This document shows, one piece after another, positions 35,920 through 47,599 of a stretch of DNA of 64,000 nucleotides. Position 1 is the stretch's first letter, and every line of letters begins with the position of its first letter. The translations under genes and the position numbers were made by a program. This stretch comes from Alphaproteobacteria bacterium (GTDB lineage Bacteria > Pseudomonadota > Alphaproteobacteria > UBA6615). The notes below the pieces were generated by a model. The model ran no database searches, had not been told where the DNA came from, and saw nothing but the letters and a program-made list of their open reading frames with translations. The stretch is from contig JBDXCV010000004.1 in NCBI GenBank assembly GCA_039980135.1, positions 1 to 64,000 on the forward strand. Direction: 5' to 3'.

Positions 35920-36729
35920 TTAGCTGCCGCGCATCTCGGCGATGAGCTGGCGCATCTGATCCGCGCTCATGGCACCGGGGACCAGTTGATCACCGACGAT
36001 GAATGCCGGTGTGCCGCGCACGCCGACCTGTCGGGCGAGTTGAAGATTCGTCTGGATTTGAGTTTCGATCGCCGGGGACTGCATGTCGCGACGGAGCCGA
36101 TCGAGATTCATGCCGAGCCGGCTCGCAATCCGGAGGATCGCGTTCTCGGATGGTGCGCCGCGCAACCCCATGATTGCGAGATGGAACTCCGCATACTTGC
36201 CTTGCTTGGCTGCGGCGAGTGCGGCACGGGTGGCCAACGTGGATTCACGTCCGAAAACGGGAAACTCCTTGAAGATGATTTTCACATCGGGGTCTTCCGC
36301 CGCGATCCTGGCGAGGTCCTGCGCCATCCGCTTGCAGTAGGGGCATTGGTAGTCGAAGAACTCGACGATTGTCACAGACGCATCCGGATTACCGATGAAC
36401 GGGTCACGGCGGCTGTTGACCAACTGCTCCATGTTGGCCGCGATGGCGCCCTGGTTTTGCTGCTGCTGGCTTTGCTGTTGCTGTGCCTGGAGCGCTTCGA
36501 TGGCTTCGACGATGACCTGGGGGTTGTCGAGGAGATACTCGCGCACGGTATTTCGGATATCGTTTTTCTGCAGCGCTGTAAAAGGCGCGTTACCGGCTGC
36601 CGAAACCGGCCCGGTGGATTCAGTAACAATCTGTGTCGGCTGTCTGGAGGTGGTGGGAAACAGAATCGCCAATGCAACGACAGCGGCCATCATCAGGGCG
36701 ACAAGAACGGCTCCACGGGATTCCGACAC
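35920..36729 (-). CDS. DsbA-like thiol:disulfide oxidoreductase (Com1/ScsC type)
   Basis: The 269-residue protein has an N-terminal hydrophobic segment (about 7-25) that anchors it or is cleaved for export. A helical region with a Gln-rich run near 82-93 follows, then a thioredoxin fold with Cys129-Pro-Tyr-Cys132 in FFDYQCPYCKRMA and the cis-Pro motif VRGTPAFIVGD. It would form or shuffle disulfides in the periplasm. The GTG start at 36729 has a strong GAGGAGAGG site. It lies downstream of the M48 protease on the same strand, so an envelope-quality-control role is plausible. Confidence 0.9.
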   Translation of the reverse strand: MSESRGAVLVALMMAAVVALAILFPTTSRQPTQIVTESTGPVSAAGNAPFTALQKNDIRNTVREYLLDNPQVIVEAIEALQAQQQQSQQQQNQGAIAANMEQLVNSRRDPFIGNPDASVTIVEFFDYQCPYCKRMAQDLARIAAEDPDVKIIFKEFPVFGRESTLATRAALAAAKQGKYAEFHLAIMGLRGAPSENAILRIASRLGMNLDRLRRDMQSPAIETQIQTNLQLARQVGVRGTPAFIVGDQLVPGAMSADQMRQLIAEMRGS

Positions 36730-36851
36730 AAGACCTCTCCTCGAACAAAACAGACCGGAGTAGCCGGCGCAACGTGCGGTGGATGATGGTGGAGTGCAAA
36801 GGGTGGTTCAAGCCGGGGTGTGGCGTGTCACGCAATGTTGACCGTATGCGA

Positions 36852-38204
36852 TCACTTTCTGTCGAGTTGGCGGCTGGCCTCGCTCACGATGTCTTGCGCG
36901 CGCAGCCAGCCCGGTGCGCCGGTCGGGAGCAATTTTGTCGCGCGTTCGGCGAGCGCCAGCGCTGCTTTTACATCGCCACCGAGGAGCGTGTATTCGGCCT
37001 GGCTCAATGCGAGGTCTCCCTGATTGCCGAGCCTGCCATTGACGATGGTCAGCAGCCGCCAGGCGTCACGCATCTGTGAGTCGAGGCGAACCGCGACACG
37101 TAAATTCTCGAGCGCGGGCTGCAGAAGGTCGGCCCGGCCGGATTCAACCTGCGCCTTTCCCAGTCCGGTCCGCAGCAATGGCTCATTGGGAGCCAGCTCG
37201 ACCATCCGTCCGTAGGGGATCAGCGAATCCTCGACCCGGCCATTTTCGAGAAGCATCTGTCCCTTGAGTTCGTGGAAGTAGGGGTTGTCCGGGTCGTCGG
37301 CGATCAACCCGTTGACCAGCGGCAGGGCCTTGCCGATTTCGGCATTGCGGTAGTAGGCGATTGCGCGGGCATAACGAGCCGGTACTTCGTTCCGGTCCTC
37401 GGGATAAATCTTGAGTGTGCTCTCGAGGGGCTCCATGAAACCGATCAGCTTGGCCCGCATATACGCATGCTTACGCGCCAGATCCCGCGAGATCGGGGTG
37501 TTCGAAAAACGCGATAATGCGAGATGCCCCGACACGGTTGCGATGCGGTCGTTTGTCAGGGGATGGGTGCTGAGATAAGGGTGCTCACGCCCGCCGGTCA
37601 GGCGAATTTCCCGTTGCAGGAGCTCGAAAAATTCAAGCAGACCACGCGCGGATATGCCGGTCTGATCGAGATACTTCAACGCCGCGGCGTCGGCAGCCGA
37701 TTCCTGCGTCCGGCTGTACTTCAGCAGATCGGTGAGGGCGGCGCTCGACCCGCCTCCGACGATGGCGCCGGCAACCCGACCGTCGCCGGTGGCGATTCCA
37801 GCCGCCAGTCCGGCAAGCAGAGCGATGATCGATTTGGTTTCGGCATTACGCAACTCATCCTGGAAACGCGCGAGATGTCCGCCGGCGATATGGCCGGTTT
37901 CATGGGCGATCACGCCGATCACTTCCTCGGGACCCTTGGCGCGAACCAGCAAACCGGTGTTAATGAAGACACGTTGGCCGCCCGCAACGAAAGCGTTGAG
38001 GCGGGCATCATTCACGAGGTGAACTTCGACAACACTGCTGTCGAGGCCCGCCGCACTGAAAATTGGCGTCGCATAGTCGCGAATGATATTTTCAATTTCG
38101 GCGTCGCGGACGAGGCCGATATTTCGGTTCTGTCCAAACGCAGATGTACTGGCCGCAACGGCAAGTACGGTGATCAAGCCAACCAAACGAACGAACGGGC
38201 GCAC
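36852..38204 (-). CDS. Periplasmic M48 metalloprotease with TPR domain, BepA-like
   Basis: The 450-residue protein starts with a signal peptide (to about residue 25, ending AFGQ). The peptidase domain has the zinc motif HETGH in VIGVIAHETGHIAGGHLARF, and the third ligand region QESAADAAALKYLDQTGIS. A TPR-like C-terminal half follows. BepA degrades or helps assemble outer-membrane proteins such as LptD in E. coli. I choose the GTG at 38204 because GGAG lies eight bases upstream and it gives a clean signal peptide; an in-frame TTG at 38258 would add 18 residues. It is divergent from the next gene over 42 bp. Confidence 0.9.
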   Translation of the reverse strand: MRPFVRLVGLITVLAVAASTSAFGQNRNIGLVRDAEIENIIRDYATPIFSAAGLDSSVVEVHLVNDARLNAFVAGGQRVFINTGLLVRAKGPEEVIGVIAHETGHIAGGHLARFQDELRNAETKSIIALLAGLAAGIATGDGRVAGAIVGGGSSAALTDLLKYSRTQESAADAAALKYLDQTGISARGLLEFFELLQREIRLTGGREHPYLSTHPLTNDRIATVSGHLALSRFSNTPISRDLARKHAYMRAKLIGFMEPLESTLKIYPEDRNEVPARYARAIAYYRNAEIGKALPLVNGLIADDPDNPYFHELKGQMLLENGRVEDSLIPYGRMVELAPNEPLLRTGLGKAQVESGRADLLQPALENLRVAVRLDSQMRDAWRLLTIVNGRLGNQGDLALSQAEYTLLGGDVKAALALAERATKLLPTGAPGWLRAQDIVSEASRQLDRK

Positions 38205-38246
38205 GTGTCTATCTCCAGGAACGATACTCAAACTAAGTACACACGA

Positions 38247-39794
38247 ATGTGGCGTCAATCAGGTCGCCGGATGCTTTTCGGCAGCCTGTTCGCGCTCGCT
38301 GCATGTGGCGGAGGCGGCCCCGAGCAGGGCGATATCGGTTTCATAGATGGCTTTTTCGGCGGCCTGATCGCCGACGAGCCGCGGGCCGCGCTGATCGGGC
38401 GCGAAGTGTTGTCGGCAGGCGGCACGGCTGCAGACGCGGCGGTCGCCACCTACTTCGCCATGGCCGTGACACTGCCTGGTGCCGCGAGCATTGGCGGCGG
38501 TGGTGTTTGCCTGATTCACGATGCCGTGCAGGTTCGCACGGAAACCATTTCGTTCCTGCCGAAGCGGCCGGCGGACTCCGCTGCGCGATTCTCGATTCCC
38601 GGGAATGTGCGCGGAATGTTCCTGCTGCATGCCCGGTACGGGGAACTGGCCTGGTCGGATATCCTGCTCCCTGCGGAAGACTTTGCGCGGACCGGACATG
38701 CCGTCTCGCGGGCATTTGTTCGCGATATTGAGGCCGCCCGACCGATCGTCGTATTTGGTCCGGAGGCTAGCTCGATCTTCGGCTTGTCCACTGGTGGCGT
38801 TGCCGAAGGACGGTTGCTGCAGCAGCTGGAGCTGGGCGCGGTCATGTCCAACTTGCGCACACAGGGGCCCGGAGCCTTCTATGACGGCGTGCTCGGTCGT
38901 TCCTTGGTCGAGGCCGTGAGCACGGCTGGTGGTCGCATGACGCTCGATGATTTGCGTAATTACCGACCCGAGATCAAGGAGCCGATCCGGTTTGAGCTCG
39001 GCAACAATGTATTGGCGTTCGCCCCGGATGGCGGGGGGGCTGTCGCAGCCCAGGTCTGGGCTGCGGCGTCGAACGGTGATCGCTACGATGACACCGCCGA
39101 CGCGGCACGCACGCATCTCATCGTCGAGCTGGGCGCGCGCGCCTATCAAGCCGAGGCGGCCGGCACGGCCGATACGACCACGGCGGCGGCCGTCGCGGCG
39201 CTGCAAACGAGCGTCTCTGAAACATCCCATAGTGCCCCCCGGCCCAGTATTGCCGTGCGCGCCGATGCCGTCATGAGCGGGGCCAGTATCGTCGCCGTGG
39301 ACAATCAGGGCCGTACGGTCGCTTGTTCCTTCACCATGAACGGCCCCTTCGGCGCGGGGGTGATCGCGCCCGGTACGGGCATTCTTCTGGCGCCGTTGCT
39401 GGAAACGGAACGTGCCTCCGTGCCGACCGTCGCGTTGATGGCGAACGAGAAGATCGGGCTCACATTTTTCGCTGCCGCCGGCGCGGGCCCGATCCCTGGC
39501 GTGCTGGCGCGCGTTGCACTGGATACGATTGTCAGGGAGGACGAGAACATGGTCGATGCCGTGGCGTTGCCACGCGCGTTCAATACCGGAAACCCCGATA
39601 TCACATTTGTCGAAGCCACGACTCCGGATGCGGCACGCGCAGCCCTTGATGCGCTCGGGCACAACATCGAACAGGTGCAGAGTATCGGCCGGGTAAACGG
39701 ATTCTTTTGTCCGCGCGGGCTTCCCCGCGTGCAGACCTGCCAGTTCGTCAAGGATCCGCGGTCCTTCGGGTTGGCAGTCAGTTCCGACGAGTAG
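38247..39794 (+). CDS. Gamma-glutamyltransferase-like lipoprotein lacking the catalytic Thr motif
   Basis: This 515-residue protein has a lipoprotein signal ending in LAAC (Cys20), so it is probably membrane-anchored in the periplasm. GGT-family landmarks are VLSAGGTAADAAVATYFAMA, IGGGGVCLIH, PGNVRGMFLLHARYG, GGRMTLDDLRNYRPEIKEPI and PGTGILLAP. The segment that should carry the nucleophile, TTHxSVVD in active enzymes, reads SGASIVAVD (344-352), with Gly or Ala in place of Thr. The oxyanion GSPGGS region reads AAGAGP. Autocleavage is therefore not expected. The protein may be a pseudoenzyme or use another chemistry. Confidence 0.8.
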   Translation: MWRQSGRRMLFGSLFALAACGGGGPEQGDIGFIDGFFGGLIADEPRAALIGREVLSAGGTAADAAVATYFAMAVTLPGAASIGGGGVCLIHDAVQVRTETISFLPKRPADSAARFSIPGNVRGMFLLHARYGELAWSDILLPAEDFARTGHAVSRAFVRDIEAARPIVVFGPEASSIFGLSTGGVAEGRLLQQLELGAVMSNLRTQGPGAFYDGVLGRSLVEAVSTAGGRMTLDDLRNYRPEIKEPIRFELGNNVLAFAPDGGGAVAAQVWAAASNGDRYDDTADAARTHLIVELGARAYQAEAAGTADTTTAAAVAALQTSVSETSHSAPRPSIAVRADAVMSGASIVAVDNQGRTVACSFTMNGPFGAGVIAPGTGILLAPLLETERASVPTVALMANEKIGLTFFAAAGAGPIPGVLARVALDTIVREDENMVDAVALPRAFNTGNPDITFVEATTPDAARAALDALGHNIEQVQSIGRVNGFFCPRGLPRVQTCQFVKDPRSFGLAVSSDE

Positions 39795-39801
39795 ACGCCG
39801 C

Positions 39802-40950
39802 ATGCCGTTGAAGGTTTCGACGCGCGGTCAGATTGACCCGTTCATCGTCATGGACGTGATGCGCGAGGCCAATGCGCTGGCCGCGGCGGGCGAGGATATC
39901 GTCCATCTGGAGGTCGGTCAGCCGGGCACATCTGCGCCGGCAAAAGTGCGTGAGGCGGCCACGGCAGCGATCCGTGACGAGCGGCTGGGCTACACCGACG
40001 CGTTGGGCATTCCCGCCCTGCGCGAGCGGATCGCCGGGCATTACGAGAGCATGTACGGGGTCGCCGTCGCGCCCGAGAGAATCGTGGTGACCACGGGTTC
40101 GTCGGGCGGATTCCTGCTCGCATTCCTGGCGGCGTTTGATGTTGGCGACCGGGTCGCGCTTGCGGCGCCAGGTTACCCGGCCTACCGCAATATTCTGTCC
40201 GCGCTCGGGGTTGAGCCGGTGGTGGTGGAGACCAGCATCGAGGACCGCTTCCAGCCAACGCCCGGCGTGATTGGCGAAGTTCCCGGCGGACTGGACGGTT
40301 TGATCGTTGCCAGCCCGTCGAACCCGACGGGTACGATGATCGGTGATCCGGAGATGAGATCATTGACGGGTCTGGCCCGGCGTCAATCGATGCGTTTCAT
40401 CTCCGACGAAATCTATCATGGCATCACTTACGGCCATGAATCGGTGACTGCGCTGGCCCATGATGATGAGGCCATCGTCATCAACAGCTTCTCGAAATAT
40501 TTTTCGATGACCGGATGGCGGCTGGGGTGGCTCGTGGTGCCGAAATCCATGTTGCGATCCGTGGAGTGTCTGGCGCAGAATCTGTTTATATCGCCACCCA
40601 CCTTGTCGCAGTACGCCGCGCTGGCGGCCTTCGACAGCCATGACGAACTACGTGAAAATGTCGCGAAATATTCCCGCAACAGGGACATTCTGCTCAGTGA
40701 TTTGCCGGGGGTCGGTTTCGACCGCCTCGCGCCGGCTGACGGTGCATTTTACGTCTATGCCGATGTGGCGCAGCTTACCAACGACAGCAATGCGTTCTGT
40801 CGTCGGATGCTGACGGAGGCGAGGGTTGCGACCACGCCGGGCCTGGATTTCGATCCGTACCGCGGCAACGCCTTCGTCAGGTTTTCATTCGCCGGGACCG
40901 AAGACGACATGCGCCAGGCGATCGACCGCCTGGGTGCCTGGCGACCCTGA
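39802..40950 (+). CDS. PLP-dependent class I/II aminotransferase
   Basis: The 382-residue aminotransferase has the fold type I pattern: HLEVGQPGTSAPAKVREAA near the N-terminus, YTDALGIPALRERIAGHY, VASPSNPTGTMI with the conserved Asn-Pro, SDEIYHGI with the Asp that binds the pyridine nitrogen, and Lys232 in INSFSKYFSMTGWRLGW that binds PLP. The Arg in the C-terminal FVRFSFAG contacts the substrate carboxylate. The amino-acid specificity cannot be read from the sequence. It starts seven bases after the GGT-like gene. Confidence 0.9.
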   Translation: MPLKVSTRGQIDPFIVMDVMREANALAAAGEDIVHLEVGQPGTSAPAKVREAATAAIRDERLGYTDALGIPALRERIAGHYESMYGVAVAPERIVVTTGSSGGFLLAFLAAFDVGDRVALAAPGYPAYRNILSALGVEPVVVETSIEDRFQPTPGVIGEVPGGLDGLIVASPSNPTGTMIGDPEMRSLTGLARRQSMRFISDEIYHGITYGHESVTALAHDDEAIVINSFSKYFSMTGWRLGWLVVPKSMLRSVECLAQNLFISPPTLSQYAALAAFDSHDELRENVAKYSRNRDILLSDLPGVGFDRLAPADGAFYVYADVAQLTNDSNAFCRRMLTEARVATTPGLDFDPYRGNAFVRFSFAGTEDDMRQAIDRLGAWRP

Positions 40951-40960
40951 AAAGGGGATA

Positions 40961-40978
40961 GACCGCCAACCTGCGGTC
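40961..40978. terminator. Hairpin between the convergent aminotransferase and rne genes
   Basis: GACCGC (40961-40966) and GCGGTC (40973-40978) pair around CAACCT, overlapping the rne stop. Read on the minus strand, a CCCCTTTT run follows a few bases later, so it could weakly terminate rne transcription. The stem is short and the T-run is not adjacent. Confidence 0.35.
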
Positions 40979-43436
40979 AGGACGTTGCCCGGTTCCACCA
41001 TCCCGATCGCCGCGGCCGGTTGTCTTCCTCGGCGGCTTCTTCAGGTTGTTCGGCCATTGTCTCGGCAGGCTCTTCGTCCGGCTCGTCAGCGGGCGTCTCC
41101 GTCGCGTCTTCGCCGGTTTCATCCGCGTCTGCCGCCGTTACCGCCTCGGGCTCGACTTCTTCGTTGGCGGCGTCCTCGTCGGCGCTGTCTTCCGAAGGGC
41201 TATTGTCGGCATCCGATGCAGCGTCCGCGACCGGTTCACTATTGCCATCATTTTCCTCGGAAGACGGCTCGGGGATGTCAATTTCAGAATCGAGTGCGTC
41301 GTCGTCATTGTCCGAAGCCGTGTCGTCCGGTGTGGCGGCGTCCGCGCCGGCTTCGGCCGCGTTCTCGTCTGTCGAAGTTTCTTCCGACGCACCTCTGCCA
41401 CGGCGTCCGCGGCGCCGGGGCCGCCGGCGACGACGACGACCAGTGTCTTCGCCATCTTCGTCGTTCTGTTCGTCGACCGTTTCGTTCTCGCCGTCGGAAT
41501 CGGGAGCTGGCTCCGCGTCCGACGTTGCTTCCTGCTCGGTTTCGCCGTCCGAGTCCGATTTCCGCCGGCGCCGGCCGCCGCGTCGGCCACGCCGTCGGCC
41601 GCCGCGCTTGCGATTTTCATCCTCGTCATCGTCGGACTGCTCATGCTCTTCCGAGGCCGTCGCATCGGTCTTCGCTTCGTCCTCGGTATTGTCGGTGTTG
41701 TTTTCCGACGAACGACGCCGACCGCGGCTGCGCCGCCGCTTGGGCGCATTTTCTTCGCGCTGTGTTTCTTCCTTGGTCGAGACGCCTTCGACACCGTCAT
41801 GGCCGATATGCACAATTTCATAGTCAGATGCGGTGAGACTGGCATCGGCCATGACCTGTACGCTGAAGCCGTAGCGTTCCTCCAGGTCCTGCAACGAGGC
41901 GCGCTTCTGGTTGAGAAGGTACAGCGCGATGTCTGTCTGGGTTGTGACGGTCACAACCTTGGCACGCTTGCGCTGACCTTCTTCTTCAAGCTCACGCAAG
42001 ATCGCCATGCTGGTCGATTCGGTTGACCGCATCAGCCCTGTGCCCTGACATACCGGACAGGCCTGTGTATGCGCCTCATGCAGGCTCGGGCGCAGACGCT
42101 GGCGCGACAGCTCCAGCAGACCGAAGGCCGATATCCGGCCAATCTGGATCCGTGCCCGGTCCGATTTCATGGCCTCCTTCATGCGCCGTTCGACGGCATG
42201 ATTGTTGCGCGAGACATCCATGTCGATGAAATCGATCACGATGAGGCCGGCCAGATCGCGCAACCGGAGCTGGCGGGCAACTTCGTCGGCCGCCTCAAGA
42301 TTGGTCCGATAGGCCGTCTGTTCGACGTTGCGTTCGCGCGTCGAGCGTCCGGAGTTCACGTCGATTGCCACCAGCGCTTCCGTCGGACTGATAACGATAT
42401 AGCCGCCGGATTTGAGCTGCACGATCGGCTCGTGAATTGCGTCGAGTTGCTGGTCGATCTGATAGCGGTTCAGCAGCGGAATCTCGGTGTCTTCGTACTT
42501 TTGGACGCGCTTGGCATGAGACGGAATCATCGTTCGCATCAACGCCTTGGCGGCCTTGTAGGCTTCATCGCCCTCGACCAGGACTTCTTCGATGTCGCGG
42601 TCGTACAAATCGCGAAGCGTGCGTTTGATGACGTCGCCTTCTTCATAAATCAGGGCCGGGGCCGTGGAATCGAGCGTGAGTTCGCGAATATCGTCCCACA
42701 GGCGGCGCAAATATTCGTAGTCGCGCTTGATCTCGGCCTTGGTGCGCGCCACGCCGGCCGTACGCATGATCACGGCCATGCCTTCGGGGACTTCAAGGTC
42801 GGACAGGATCGCCTTCATCGACTTGCGATGCTTGGCGTCCGTCACCTTCCGGCTGATTCCACCGCCGCGTGAAGTGTTGGGCATCAACACGCAATAGCGT
42901 CCGGGCAGGGAGAGGTAGGTCGTGAGGGCGGCCCCCTTGTTGCCGCGTTCTTCCTTGACCACCTGCACCAGCAGGATCTGGCGGCGCTTGATGACCTCCT
43001 GGATCTTGTAACTGCGGGTCAGCTTGCGCAGGCGCCGACGATGGGCATCGCTCAGTTCCTGGATATCCTCGTCCTGGGAATCCCCCAGGACTTCGACCGA
43101 TTCTCCGTCGCTCTCGCCGTTTTCGCCGGCTTCTTCTTCTTCCTCGTTCTCGGCGTCGGATTCAGCCAGCAGTTTTTCGCGATCCTCGATGGGAATGCGG
43201 TAGTAGTCCGGATGAATTTCGTTGAACGCCAGAAACCCGTGACGATCGCCTCCGAAATCAACGAAGGCCGCCTGCAGCGAAGGCTCAACGCGAGTCACCT
43301 TCGCCAGATAGATGTTGCTCTTGATCTGGCGCTTGGTGGAGGTTTCGTAGTCGTATTCGAGGAGTTCGTTACCGTCTGCGACGACGACCCGGGTCTCTTC
43401 CGGATGGGTCGCGTCGATCAACATGCGCTTTGGCAT
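40977..43436 (-). CDS. rne: Ribonuclease E
   Basis: The 819-residue endonuclease organises the RNA degradosome. MPKRMLIDATHPEETRVVVA starts the S1 domain (about 35-135), which carries an acidic insert (92-130). The catalytic core has Asp359 (VAIDVNSGRSTRE) and Asp402 (IDFIDMD), and the zinc link is Cys460-Pro-Val-Cys463. From about 570 the tail is disordered, with arginine-rich blocks (GGRRRGRRGGRRRR) alternating with acidic stretches. It ends RRSGWWNRATS, the GWW element that binds PNPase in Caulobacter. ATG at 43436; an in-frame upstream start at 43466 is unlikely. Confidence 0.95.
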   Translation of the reverse strand: MPKRMLIDATHPEETRVVVADGNELLEYDYETSTKRQIKSNIYLAKVTRVEPSLQAAFVDFGGDRHGFLAFNEIHPDYYRIPIEDREKLLAESDAENEEEEEAGENGESDGESVEVLGDSQDEDIQELSDAHRRRLRKLTRSYKIQEVIKRRQILLVQVVKEERGNKGAALTTYLSLPGRYCVLMPNTSRGGGISRKVTDAKHRKSMKAILSDLEVPEGMAVIMRTAGVARTKAEIKRDYEYLRRLWDDIRELTLDSTAPALIYEEGDVIKRTLRDLYDRDIEEVLVEGDEAYKAAKALMRTMIPSHAKRVQKYEDTEIPLLNRYQIDQQLDAIHEPIVQLKSGGYIVISPTEALVAIDVNSGRSTRERNVEQTAYRTNLEAADEVARQLRLRDLAGLIVIDFIDMDVSRNNHAVERRMKEAMKSDRARIQIGRISAFGLLELSRQRLRPSLHEAHTQACPVCQGTGLMRSTESTSMAILRELEEEGQRKRAKVVTVTTQTDIALYLLNQKRASLQDLEERYGFSVQVMADASLTASDYEIVHIGHDGVEGVSTKEETQREENAPKRRRSRGRRRSSENNTDNTEDEAKTDATASEEHEQSDDDEDENRKRGGRRRGRRGGRRRRKSDSDGETEQEATSDAEPAPDSDGENETVDEQNDEDGEDTGRRRRRRPRRRGRRGRGASEETSTDENAAEAGADAATPDDTASDNDDDALDSEIDIPEPSSEENDGNSEPVADAASDADNSPSEDSADEDAANEEVEPEAVTAADADETGEDATETPADEPDEEPAETMAEQPEEAAEEDNRPRRSGWWNRATS

Positions 43437-43847
43437 GGCTATGTCCCTGTGGAGGCCTGTACTCAACGCTTTGCGGACAAAAGCGAGAGGGGTTCCACAT
43501 TTTCAGAGGCCTGCCCCGGAACCTGGACCGTCGAACGGGCGAAATCGCACCAGGACGGAAGGTTTTGATCCGAAGGCCCGCCCGGCGATTGCCGTGCGGC
43601 GGCCTCGAAGTTGCACAAAACCGCAATTCTGATGCGCACTTTGCTTGGTCTGCGCGGGCTCTAGGGCGATAAACTGGCTCCCTTGCCCACACCCAGACCA
43701 TGAAACGCAGCGCGCGTCCGTTGAATTGCGGGTGTCCGCGCGGCCACAATAGCCGCCGCGAGTCCGATCCACAATGCATTTGATTGCGTACCCTTCCCAC
43801 GCTTGTGTGTTGCGGCGCATTCACTGGTAGCGATATACCTGTCGGCG
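43437..43847. other. 411-bp divergent intergenic region between rne and amiC
   Basis: No conserved gene is visible here. On the amiC side a weak promoter candidate is TTGAAT (43721-43726), 18 bases, CACAAT (43745-43750). On the rne side the leader could exceed 200 bases. GGTTCC (43491-43496) and GGAACC (43518-43523) can pair around 21 bases, and AGGCCTG occurs at about 43454 and 43508. In E. coli the rne leader mediates autoregulation by RNase E; this long gap would allow the same, but I see no conserved hairpin that proves it. Confidence 0.5.
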
Positions 43848-45083
43848 ATGTCATTGATTCTGAAACGCTTATCAAGTTGCGCCAAGCGCGGGCGAATCCT
43901 CATAGGGGGGCTGGCGATCATTTTTGCCATGGTCGCGGCGCCCGGTATTGCGGGCGCGCAGGATTTGAAAGTACAGGACATCCGGATCGGCGTTCATGCC
44001 GCCTCAACGCGTTTCGTCGTGGAACTGAGCGACCGCGTGGAACCGCGCGTGTTCGGTCTCCCCGACCCGTTCCGGGTTGTGATCGACCTTCCCGAGGTTG
44101 ATTTCGACTTGCCCGAGGAGCGGATCGGCGACGGTGCGGGCTTGATCTCGAAGCTCCGGTATGGTCTTTTCCGGCCGGGCACAAGTCGGTTCGTTCTGGA
44201 CCTGACATCCCCTTCCAAGGTCACAAAACAATTCATTCTGAAGCCGGACGGCGGCAAACCATGGCGACTGGTGCTCGACATCGCGCCAACCAGCCGGGCC
44301 GACTTCATTGCCTCGATGCGTCCCAGCGCGGACGACAATCCGAACCCTGTAACGGCTGTGCCTGTGCCTTCGACCCCTCGGCAGAATGCGCGGCCGGTTG
44401 TCGTTGTCGATGCAGGTCACGGCGGCGTCGACCCCGGTGCGATCGGGGTTTCGGGTGTGTATGAAAAGAAGATTGCGCTGGATTACGCGCGTGAAGTCGT
44501 GCGTTTGCTGAAGGCGAGCGGCAAGTACGAAGTGGTGATGACACGCAACCGGGATATTTTCCTGCCGCTGCGCGAAAGGGTCCGGATTTCACGAGCGGCC
44601 GGTGCCGATCTGTTCTTGTCGATGCATGCGAACACCCATCCGAAGCGTTCAACCCGCGGATTTTCGGTATACACGCTGTCGGACAGGGCCTCGGACAAGG
44701 AAGCGGCCGCACTGGCGGCACTCGAAAACAAGTCGGATGTAATCGGCGGCGTTAATCTGGGTAATTACAGCGACGACGTTCAAAACATCCTGATCGATTT
44801 TGCCCAGGCCAAGACCAACGAACTGTCGGTCAAGTTCGCCCGCGATATTCTGGTCGGGCAGGTCAAAACCAGCGCTTCACTGTTGACCCGCCCGTGGCGG
44901 TCGGCCGGGTTCGCAGTGTTGAAAGCGCCTGACGTTCCCTCGGTCCTCGTTGAGTTGGGCTATATATCCAATGCACGTGAGGAGCGCCTGCTCGTCACGC
45001 CGAAACATCGTCGAAAACTATCCGCCGCGATCGTTGAGGCCGTGGATGTTTATTTTGAAACCACGCAAAGCGCGGCGCTGTAG
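43848..45083 (+). CDS. amiC: N-acetylmuramoyl-L-alanine amidase with AMIN domain
   Basis: The 411-residue amidase splits the peptide from MurNAc during cell separation. A signal peptide covers about 1-38 (ending GIAGA). The AMIN domain (about 40-140) targets peptidoglycan at the septum, and the Amidase_3 domain runs from about 183. Zinc ligands are His191 (VDAGHGGVDPG), Glu206 (GVYEKKIAL) and His260 (SMHANTHP), with catalytic Glu369 (VLVELGYISN). The ATG at 43848 gives a good signal peptide; an in-frame TTG at 43803 is rejected. The order rne / amiC / mrcA is common in alphaproteobacteria. Confidence 0.93.
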   Translation: MSLILKRLSSCAKRGRILIGGLAIIFAMVAAPGIAGAQDLKVQDIRIGVHAASTRFVVELSDRVEPRVFGLPDPFRVVIDLPEVDFDLPEERIGDGAGLISKLRYGLFRPGTSRFVLDLTSPSKVTKQFILKPDGGKPWRLVLDIAPTSRADFIASMRPSADDNPNPVTAVPVPSTPRQNARPVVVVDAGHGGVDPGAIGVSGVYEKKIALDYAREVVRLLKASGKYEVVMTRNRDIFLPLRERVRISRAAGADLFLSMHANTHPKRSTRGFSVYTLSDRASDKEAAALAALENKSDVIGGVNLGNYSDDVQNILIDFAQAKTNELSVKFARDILVGQVKTSASLLTRPWRSAGFAVLKAPDVPSVLVELGYISNAREERLLVTPKHRRKLSAAIVEAVDVYFETTQSAAL

Positions 45084-45184
45084 GCGTCCCACAATCCGAC
45101 ACCGCCACAATCCCCCCACATTTTGATGCTTATCCAGCGGCCATGCTCGTCTATGCTCGGGCGCGAATAAATTTGGAATACCGA

Positions 45185-47599
45185 ATGCTTCGTTGGTTGG
45201 GATTTCTTGCAGGTCTGGCTCTCGTCGGCGCGTTGCTGCTGGTCGGTGGCGTGCTTTGGGTGTTCTGGGAGTATGGTCGGGATCTGCCGGATTATACGCA
45301 GCTGGCCGATTATCAGCCGCCGGTCACCACGCGTGTCCATGCCGGTGACGGCAGCCTGTTGGCCGAATACGCGGTCCAGCGGCGGGTTTTCGTACCGGTT
45401 TCGTCGATGCCGACGTTGGTCAAAGAGGCTTTTCTTTCCGCGGAAGACAAGAATTTTTACAAACATCCGGGCGTCGACGTGACGGGCGTGATGCGCGCCG
45501 TCGTATCGAACGTCCGCAATCTGGGCTCCGGCCGTCGTCCCGAGGGGGCATCCACGATCACCCAGCAGGTTGCGCAGAATTTCCTGCTGACCAAGGAAGT
45601 CTCGCTTGACCGTAAGGTTCGTGAAGCGATCCTTTCGTTTCGGATGGAGCGCGCATTCTCGAAGGAAGAGATTCTCGAGCTCTACCTGAATGAGATATAT
45701 CTCGGCTTCGGAGCCTACGGCGTGGCGTCGGCGGCGCTGAACTATTTCGGCAAACCCCTCGACCAGCTCACTGTGGACGAGGCGGCATTCCTGGCGGCGT
45801 TGCCGAAGGCACCAAACAACTACCACCCGATCCGCAAGAACGCGGCGGCGGTCGCGCGGCGCAATTATGTGCTGGGTCGCATGGCCGAAGATGGCGCCAT
45901 CTCGCCGGGTGAGGCGGAAGAGCTTCGCCAACGCCCGATCACTGTCATCCGCAATGACGACACGGCGTTGGTGGAGGCCCCCTATTTTGCGGAAGAAGTG
46001 CGGCGCGAACTGGTTGACCGGTTTGGGGATGGTGCGCTGTACGAGGGCGGCCTGTCGGTGCGCACGACGCTGGACCCGCGCCTGCAACGCATCGCCCAAC
46101 TTACCCTGCGCGACGGATTGATCGCGTATGACCGCCGGCACGGCTGGCGCGGGCCCGTTTCCCGCCTCGCGGATCCCGCCGCATGGCAGGCCGCGTTGCC
46201 GAAGATCGAGCATCCGGCAGGCTCCGGCGATTGGCAACTGGCTGCCGTGGTCGCAGTGGACGCCGCACAAGCCTCGATCGGGTTTGTCGACGGGTCGATG
46301 GGGACGGTGCCGCTCAGCGAGCTGCGTTGGGCGCGCGCCTGGCTGCCGGACCAGAAACGCGGCCCGTCGGTCAAGGCGGCAGATGAAGTGCTGGCGCCGG
46401 GCGATGTGGTGCTGGTTTCAGCCGTCACGGAGAATTCGGAGGCCGAGCCATACCCCGCGGGTACGTTCCGTCTTGAGCAAATCCCGGAAATCAATGGTGC
46501 GGTTGTGGCGCTCGATCCGCATACCGGTCGCATCCTTGCGATGACCGGCGGGCTCGATTTTCGGGCCAGCGAGTTCAACCGCGCGACCCAGGCGTGGCGC
46601 CAGCCCGGCTCGGCATTCAAGCCGGTGGTCTATATGGCGGCGCTGGACAGCGGGTTCACGCCGTCGACGCGTATCCTCGATGCACCCTTCGTGATCGATC
46701 AGGGCCCGGGGCAGGGCAAGTGGAAACCGGCCAACTACACCAACAAGTTCTACGGGCCGAGTCCGATGCGCCTCGGGATTGAGAAGTCCCGCAACCTCAT
46801 GACCGTGCGCCTGGCGCAGACAATCGGGATGGAGCAGGTGGCGAGCTATGCGGAGCGGCTGAAGGTGGTCGATCACCTGCCGCGTCAGCTCAGCATGTCG
46901 ATTGGCGCGGGAGAGACGACATTGATGCGCCTGGTCGCCGCCTACGCGACGGTCGTCAATGGCGGCAAGCAAATCACGCCGACCCTGATCGACCGGATAC
47001 AGGATCGGAACGGCACCACCACGTTCCGCCATGACCAGCGCCCTTGTGCAACCTGCACCGTCGAGGCATGGGCCGACCAGCCACCGCCGAGTTTGCCCGA
47101 CCCCCGTGAACGGTTGATCCAACCGGGCACGGCGTACCAGATGGTATCGATGCTGAAAGGGGTCGTGGACCGCGGGACCGGCCGGCGTATCGGCCAACTG
47201 AAACTGCCGCTCGCAGGCAAGACAGGCACGTCGAATGATTCGCTCGACACATGGTTCATCGGGTTCTCGCCCGACCTCGCGGTCGGGGTTTTCGTCGGGT
47301 TTGATACGCCGCGAACGCTGGGGCCGCGCGAGACCGGCTCGTCCGTGCCAGCGCCGATCTTCAAGGACTTCATGGCGCGCGCACTCGAAGGCAAGCCCGT
47401 CATCCCGTTCCGCGTCCCGCCGGATATCCGTCTTGTGCGTGTGAACCCCGAAACCGGCCTGGTGGCGCTGCCGGGCGAGCGGGCAACAATTCTGGAAGCG
47501 TTCAAACCGGGCACCGAGCCGCGCAAGTTCGGCTCGATTGTCGGTGAGGATCTGGGGCGCGGCGTGAACGCGGGCGGTCCGCGGCGCGGTATTTACTGA
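45185..47599 (+). CDS. mrcA: Penicillin-binding protein 1A (bifunctional)
   Basis: The 804-residue class A PBP polymerises and cross-links peptidoglycan at the inner membrane. One membrane helix (about 5-27) precedes the glycosyltransferase domain with catalytic Glu87 in SAEDKNFYKHPGVD and RKVREAILSFRMERAFSKEE. An OB-like insert follows. The transpeptidase domain has nucleophile Ser476 in QPGSAFKPVVY and the KTGTS box at Lys679. I prefer the ATG at 45185, with GGAA seven bases upstream and the standard N-terminus; an in-frame ATG at 45143 would add 14 residues. Confidence 0.95.
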   Translation: MLRWLGFLAGLALVGALLLVGGVLWVFWEYGRDLPDYTQLADYQPPVTTRVHAGDGSLLAEYAVQRRVFVPVSSMPTLVKEAFLSAEDKNFYKHPGVDVTGVMRAVVSNVRNLGSGRRPEGASTITQQVAQNFLLTKEVSLDRKVREAILSFRMERAFSKEEILELYLNEIYLGFGAYGVASAALNYFGKPLDQLTVDEAAFLAALPKAPNNYHPIRKNAAAVARRNYVLGRMAEDGAISPGEAEELRQRPITVIRNDDTALVEAPYFAEEVRRELVDRFGDGALYEGGLSVRTTLDPRLQRIAQLTLRDGLIAYDRRHGWRGPVSRLADPAAWQAALPKIEHPAGSGDWQLAAVVAVDAAQASIGFVDGSMGTVPLSELRWARAWLPDQKRGPSVKAADEVLAPGDVVLVSAVTENSEAEPYPAGTFRLEQIPEINGAVVALDPHTGRILAMTGGLDFRASEFNRATQAWRQPGSAFKPVVYMAALDSGFTPSTRILDAPFVIDQGPGQGKWKPANYTNKFYGPSPMRLGIEKSRNLMTVRLAQTIGMEQVASYAERLKVVDHLPRQLSMSIGAGETTLMRLVAAYATVVNGGKQITPTLIDRIQDRNGTTTFRHDQRPCATCTVEAWADQPPPSLPDPRERLIQPGTAYQMVSMLKGVVDRGTGRRIGQLKLPLAGKTGTSNDSLDTWFIGFSPDLAVGVFVGFDTPRTLGPRETGSSVPAPIFKDFMARALEGKPVIPFRVPPDIRLVRVNPETGLVALPGERATILEAFKPGTEPRKFGSIVGEDLGRGVNAGGPRRGIY

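Follow-up and report, generated by a model that had tools for sequence, protein, structure and literature searches.

A predicted gamma-glutamyltransferase-fold lipoprotein family without the catalytic threonine at the bepA locus of Alphaproteobacteria

The stretch of alphaproteobacterial DNA examined here (64,000 nucleotides, hereafter the window) contains a gene at 38247-39794 (+ strand) that encodes a lipoprotein of predicted gamma-glutamyltransferase (GGT) fold in which the catalytic Thr is missing. We propose, at a probability of roughly 0.6, that the product is a catalytically dead and uncleaved GGT-fold envelope lipoprotein, stapled by cysteines, that has a binding role, with outer-membrane assembly or quality control as our guess at its partners. 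The parts of this proposal differ in strength. Judged from the alignments, the window protein is very probably a pseudoenzyme, and the family to which it belongs, which carries an enzyme annotation, probably functions through binding rather than catalysis; a binding role placed specifically in envelope assembly beside the protease BepA is offered tentatively. The best reading of the gene itself is that it is one member of a vertically inherited alphaproteobacterial family, referred to below as the pseudo-GGT family.

Results

The gene begins with ATG and encodes 515 amino acids before a TAG stop at 39792-39794. An initial annotation of this DNA had pointed to a lipobox, LAAC, and to homology with the GGT family, and both are borne out. 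The lipobox lies at residues 17-20 (38295-38306, + strand), with Cys20 predicted to be lipidated and Gly at position +2, so that the N-terminus reads, by its letters, as a signal peptide with the lipobox and Cys in the form LAAC-G (residues 17-21). The protein matches the Pfam family PF01019 with 214.2 bits (E 4.8e-63), exceeding the Pfam gathering score of 27. Against the TIGR00066 equivalog it scores 161.6 bits, under the NCBIfam curated cut-off of 357.85, and it falls far under the cut-offs of both NCBIfam GGT models. Four further PF01019 genes are located elsewhere in the source genome, with a nucleophile column that reads Thr in every case, and the window gene is therefore not the sole GGT homologue there. 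A stop-free antisense frame of 514 aa (38259-39803, - strand) covers nearly the whole gene; it gives no Pfam match at E 0.001 and is probably explained by the base composition of a GC-rich coding region.

A scan of genome contigs returned nine orthologues at 63-83% identity, titled as Rhodospirillaceae or Alphaproteobacteria MAGs, all nine of which carry GA[ST]IVAVD at the site of the nucleophile motif. The dN/dS of the window gene against four orthologues is 0.08-0.14, and purifying selection is acting on the gene. With the motif conserved in nine of nine orthologues, dN/dS this low, and a wider family that has its own signature and no fixed Thr, we rejected a chance open reading frame for 38247-39794.

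Searches of the relatives and of the class extended the family to members of about 31% identity. Matches at E 1e-60 were found in 99 of 241 genomes of the class sample, and at least 87 genomes, with 47 family codes between them, contain a member. For 86 of these the assignment was made by reading the sequence and for one (G250) by score alone, and in the other 12 matching genomes every match that was read was a canonical GGT. One of those 12, G064, does carry a member (L245), found through its position beside bepA, which makes 87 a lower bound; it is also the figure used in the counts of BepA with and without a member given below. Separating members from canonical GGTs by a single score was unreliable. 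In a profile built from 17 diverse members, the canonical GGTs of the own genome (n = 4) score no more than 163 bits, but with the member profile other canonical GGTs reach 306.1 bits and members fall as low as 247.8 (239.9 for one later member). Because of this overlap the groups were classified by sequence, although a comparison of two profiles, member against canonical, does separate them. The 115 proteins compared, from which duplicates were removed by containment only and near twins retained, were called members if they had two or more of the four cysteines described below and canonical if they had none, which gave 93 members, including the window protein, and 19 canonical GGTs; in neither group are L029 and L036, both truncated, and L004, which is a canonical GGT but has a single one of the cysteines.

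All 17 diverse members match PF01019 (E up to 0.01), the sole Pfam family seen in them, and at the same threshold all 17 match two GGT models of NCBIfam, where two other models give one stray match each. An NCBIfam LptM match in one member (E 0.0043) was read as a match to the signal peptide and set aside. When the phylum was searched, 188 of 397 genomes had a match at E 1e-60, and 20 matches fetched from its other classes were canonical in every case, with Thr at column 345 and no Cys at the four columns; in this sample, drawn within one phylum, the family thus appears restricted to Alphaproteobacteria. Plasmid records with a match number 375, all at <60% identity, and the 12 matches listed are at about 26% identity with feature names, where given, of ggt. 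The four-Cys signature was present in none of 19 loci on viral contigs, each checked at those family columns that it covers. Two class genomes deserve separate mention. The member L076 of genome G077 has one in-frame TAA, which may reflect either decay of this copy or a mistake in the assembly, and genome G260 (listed contamination 5%) has two members, L079 and L080, both flanked by a divergent bepA and an aminotransferase gene of their own, as would result from a duplicated locus or from two strains in one assembly.

In bacterial GGT, a Thr within a Thr-Thr-His (TTH) motif is the residue used for self-cutting and for attack on the substrate. PMC8062742, our source for the roles of T391 and of G483/G484 in E. 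coli GGT, describes a T391A mutant with no autoprocessing and no detectable activity. The window protein was initially annotated as having SGASIVAVD in place of the TTHxSVVD nucleophile motif, and the alignment agrees: SGASIVAVD (39276-39302, + strand) starts at residue 344, the TTH of canonical GGTs from this and other genomes aligns with Gly345-Ala346-Ser347, and Gly345 (39279-39281) therefore stands at the nucleophile position, leaving no Thr nucleophile within a TTH. The accompanying claim, that AAGAGP (39474-39491, + strand) replaces GSPGGS in the oxyanion loop, is confirmed too. The first five letters of GSPGGS align with A411-G412-A413-G414-P415, so that the first Gly of the pair is retained as G414 and the second oxyanion Gly is Pro415. 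Four other residues of GGT, Arg114, Asp433, Ser462 and Ser463, we take to hold the glutamyl part of the substrate; their equivalents in the window protein are Leu104, Thr387, Ser391 and Val392, with one of the four kept.

The same pattern of loss extends over the family. At the nucleophile column, the 93 members have G in 32 cases, A in 23, S in 19, T in seven and another letter in 12, whereas all 19 canonical proteins have T, and the His of TTH is found in none of the members but in 17/19 canonical proteins. Equally frequent (17/19 each) in the canonical group are both letters of the RE motif, of which R (the Arg114 equivalent) occurs in 5/93 members and E in 0/93, as well as the equivalents of Asp433 (8/93 members), Ser462 (11/93) and Ser463 (19/93). 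The oxyanion glycines are lost less often, G483 being kept in 87/93 members compared with 19/19 canonical GGTs, and G484 in 53/93 compared with 18/19. No member has more than four of the seven scored active-site residues, whereas 17 of the 19 canonical proteins have all seven. The other two canonical rows keep one and two of the seven and nonetheless have the Thr, indicating that loss of the remaining residues is not by itself special to the pseudo-GGT family. In addition, the stretch before the nucleophile position is shorter than 60 residues in 32 of 91 members, compared with 86-106 residues in the 19 canonical GGTs.

In a quick tree, 45 members formed one branch against 39 canonical GGTs, with SH-aLRT support of 100, and the family may have had a single origin, with which the branching is compatible. 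The 45 were drawn from the 93 as six picked by hand and 39 at random, after eight rows had been excluded, six of them near twins and two truncated. Along this tree the letter at the nucleophile column changes 22 times among the members, taking nine different states, and does not change at all among the 39 canonical GGTs. A clade-wide loss of Thr had been put forward at the outset as the mark of a pseudoenzyme family, and such a loss is what we find (T in 7/93, the TTH His in 0/93). The counter-evidence named with it, a Thr or Ser in the same position, is confined to single sequences: S or T is seen in 26/93 members, within a column that changes 22 times among the 45. Two T-bearing members, L059 and L087, reach four of the seven scored residues, including the equivalents of Arg114 and of the second oxyanion Gly, and L033, a close sister of L059, has Ala at this column. 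Thr is also present in members L213 and L214.

The family has gained a signature of its own. Four cysteines, Cys88 (38508-38510) in the part equivalent to the GGT large subunit, and Cys360 (39324-39326) in that equivalent to the small subunit, followed by Cys488 (39708-39710) and Cys498 (39738-39740), all on the + strand, are present in 93/93 members save for gaps in two truncated rows, Cys360 being present in every one. Members were defined by having at least two of these residues, and the contrast with canonical GGTs is therefore partly one of definition. When the split was repeated by profile score, using a member profile that itself contains the cysteines, 95 of the 115 rows scored higher with the member profile, 91 of them with all four Cys and four lacking only columns that are gaps, whereas the other 20 rows all have Thr at column 345 and include a single Cys in one protein, L004. 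This division is identical to the Cys-based one except that the truncated L029 and L036 now fall among the members. All four Cys are also found in 12 further class members, in L155-L157 from the phylum search, and in L245, and none of the four columns changes within the 45 members of the tree. Further marks include D43 and P45 in the motif DEPRA (residues 43-47; 38373-38387, + strand), which are present in 87% and 94% of members and in 0% and 16% of canonical GGTs, respectively; together with E144, R155 and R204, each is found in 86-94% of members compared with 0-16% of canonical proteins. A lipobox was detected, by pattern and hydrophobic stretch, in 80/93 members. Asp at +2 of lipoproteins is an inner-membrane signal in E. 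coli, and it is found in four of these 80.

The four conserved cysteines probably form two disulfides, C88-C360 and C488-C498. Given that C88 belongs to the half equivalent to the large subunit and C360 to that equivalent to the small subunit, the first bond would join what self-cleavage separates in GGT. One of these residues could instead be catalytic, in that the protein might be an active hydrolase that uses a different nucleophile. Candidates would be Cys360, which is invariant and precedes the Thr409-like position by three residues, and, in the 26 members that have one, the Ser or Thr at column 345. We regard this as improbable. The frequent changes at column 345 and the loss of most other active-site residues both speak against it, and Cys360 accompanies Cys88 wherever both columns have letters, as expected of a pair. 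Furthermore, Ntn hydrolases liberate their nucleophile as an N-terminal residue, yet Cys360 is placed inside a strand in the model described next.

A first structural model, based on the window protein and the nine close orthologues only, was poor (pLDDT 36.1), and a second, for which 15 GGT relatives from viral contigs were added to the alignment, reached pLDDT 82.4 and pTM 0.87. The best PDB match of this model is 2e0w, the T391A mutant of E. coli GGT in its uncleaved precursor form (Foldseek E 5.7e-33); in VIA, the two superimpose with Z 45.0 and rmsd 3.0 over 474 residues, a result obtained with GGT relatives in the alignment. Next is another uncleaved precursor mutant, 4y23 (Z 41.6). Other proteins of GGT fold, matched by both Foldseek and VIA, have VIA scores below the E. 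coli precursor: the cephalosporin acylase 2nlz (Z 40.7), the Thermoplasma protein 2i3o (39.8), LmbA (35.6), CapD (25.1) and HpxW (23.4), the PDB entries of CapD and HpxW each representing, we assume, one chain of a split enzyme. When folds are compared over whole chains, a precursor in one piece should outscore the split chains of a mature enzyme, and the match to 2e0w is therefore not in itself proof of an uncleaved state. Likewise, the 15 relatives put the GGT fold partly into the model, and the match is more a confirmation of compatibility with a single-chain GGT fold than a discovery of it.

Divergently oriented to the pseudo-GGT gene is a gene for a BepA-like M48 metalloprotease with a TPR region (36852-38204, - strand). 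With the GTG at 38204, which we chose as its start codon, the two genes are separated by 42 bp (38205-38246), and the spacing given in the initial annotation is correct on that choice; the longest mechanical bepA frame, with a TTG at 38258 as its start, would extend into the pseudo-GGT gene. No sigma-70-type site was found in 38100-38400. Seven bp downstream of the pseudo-GGT gene, on the same strand, is a gene for a PLP-dependent class I/II aminotransferase (39802-40950, + strand), with which it may be co-transcribed, and on the far side of bepA lies a gene for a DsbA-like protein of thioredoxin fold (35920-36729, - strand). Beyond the aminotransferase, the window continues with RNase E (- strand), an amidase (Amidase_3 and AMIN) and a class A penicillin-binding protein. 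The genes in the order dsbA, bepA, (pseudo-GGT), aminotransferase, rne form a conserved block, past which the window has the amidase and penicillin-binding protein genes (35920-47599 in all).

A divergent bepA is next to 90/93 members and 0/19 canonical GGTs, a same-strand aminotransferase gene next to 82/93 and 0/19, respectively, and dsbA is near 38/93 members, many of the stretches being too short to reach it, and near 0/19 canonical genes. The three members without a bepA neighbor have dsbA within reach. Three members, L109, L115 and L132 (genomes G163, G049 and G243; family code f27), lie beside dsbA in genomes without a bepA match at E 1e-40, indicating that the pseudo-GGT gene can persist without a recognizable BepA. 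We also picked by hand, chiefly among the first entries of the BepA list and so not at random, 20 bepA loci from the 135 BepA genomes without a counted member. One held the overlooked L245 and the gene was absent from the other 19, in which bepA abuts the aminotransferase gene in 15, rne in three, and neither of these in one. In the loci examined, bepA and the aminotransferase gene thus usually adjoin where the pseudo-GGT gene is absent, which makes the latter an optional part of an old alphaproteobacterial locus whose position was, most simply, kept by descent. Because the neighborhood is conserved without the pseudo-GGT gene, adjacency says less about a joint function. Co-occurrence also says little, since nearly all genomes of the class sample (219/241) have BepA: it is found in 84/87 genomes with a member and in 135/154 without a counted member (Fisher p 0.02, kinship ignored).

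These data also bear on the possibility that the gene is a decaying, functionless copy of an ordinary GGT, as the loss of catalytic residues and the in-frame stop in the G077 member might suggest. However, the dN/dS of 0.08-0.14, the retention of the four Cys throughout the sampled family, the occurrence of members under 47 family codes in the class sample and the bepA that adjoins nearly every member are at odds with decay. We looked for a dN/dS near 1 and for loss of the Cys signature in the orthologues, and saw neither; on these two grounds a decaying gene was rejected, and we hold that explanation to be extremely improbable.

The main rival to our reading, unlikely in our estimate but ahead of the two others, is that the dead enzyme has turned into a ligand binder that holds gamma-glutamyl compounds, peptides derived from peptidoglycan or some other small ligand in the former active-site cleft and serves as a sensor or scavenging receptor within an aminotransferase operon. 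Consistent with this, the fold is retained, the Thr409-like position is T or S in 82/93 members and the Asn411-like position N in 59/93, one oxyanion Gly is kept in most members, and an aminotransferase gene is the same-strand neighbor both in the window and in most of the family. On the other side, the residues presumed to hold the glutamyl group are kept in only 5, 8, 11 and 19 of the 93 members, so that binding of gamma-glutamyl compounds in the manner of GGT is unlikely and a different ligand possible.

Discussion

Our preferred reading, a dead and uncleaved envelope lipoprotein that acts by binding, can be laid out as follows. The pseudo-GGT protein would be exported, carry its lipid on Cys20 and stay anchored in the envelope, probably at the outer membrane. 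It would remain a single chain that does not cut itself, because the residue that GGT uses for self-cutting and substrate attack is gone. A C88-C360 disulfide would staple the two halves, with C488-C498 as a putative second bond, and the protein would act through binding and not through catalysis. For its partners, our guess is the line of outer-membrane protein assembly and quality control in which BepA and DsbA take part. A more specific version, in which an uncleaved, disulfide-stapled lipoprotein derived from an ancient secreted GGT is a structural partner of BepA and DsbA in the assembly of outer-membrane proteins or of the LPS translocon, is more doubtful than a general binding role beside BepA.

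Compared with bacterial GGT (PF01019; E. coli GGT, 2e0w), the window protein is homologous over most of its chain, has the same predicted fold and shares many structural glycines. In contrast to the enzyme, it has no Thr nucleophile and no His of TTH, Pro is its second oxyanion residue, the equivalents of RE and Asp433 are lost and SSM is mostly lost; in addition it is a predicted lipoprotein and has four extra cysteines. GGT homologues said to lack activity are likewise known among animal paralogues: in PMC12663528, human GGT2 is described as encoding only inactive prepeptides and as 94% identical to GGT1, an identity that suggests a young copy. The pseudo-GGT family differs from GGT2 in being a divergent and widespread bacterial clade with its own Cys signature. 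BepA, which PMC8423444 presents as an M48 protease for the biogenesis and degradation of LptD in E. coli, is a protein unrelated to the pseudo-GGT protein, and a BepA-like gene is its divergent neighbor throughout nearly all of the sampled family. We found no description of the family in the open-licence PMC papers searched; a GGT-fold pseudoenzyme family with a signature of its own appears to be new, inactive animal GGT paralogues being already known.

Since gamma-glutamyltranspeptidase is the only family that Pfam sees in the 17 diverse members, domain annotation would credit these genomes with an enzyme that the locus probably does not make, and the enzyme label is probably misleading for a family found in at least 87 genomes of the one class sampled. 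The T-bearing members L059, L087, L213 and L214 are good controls for tests of activity. If the proposal holds, the label gamma-glutamyltransferase has concealed a pseudoenzyme that has its own function in the envelope. Its role there, if true, would offer a way into the outer-membrane quality control of Alphaproteobacteria, as well as a natural experiment on how an Ntn hydrolase persists without its nucleophile.
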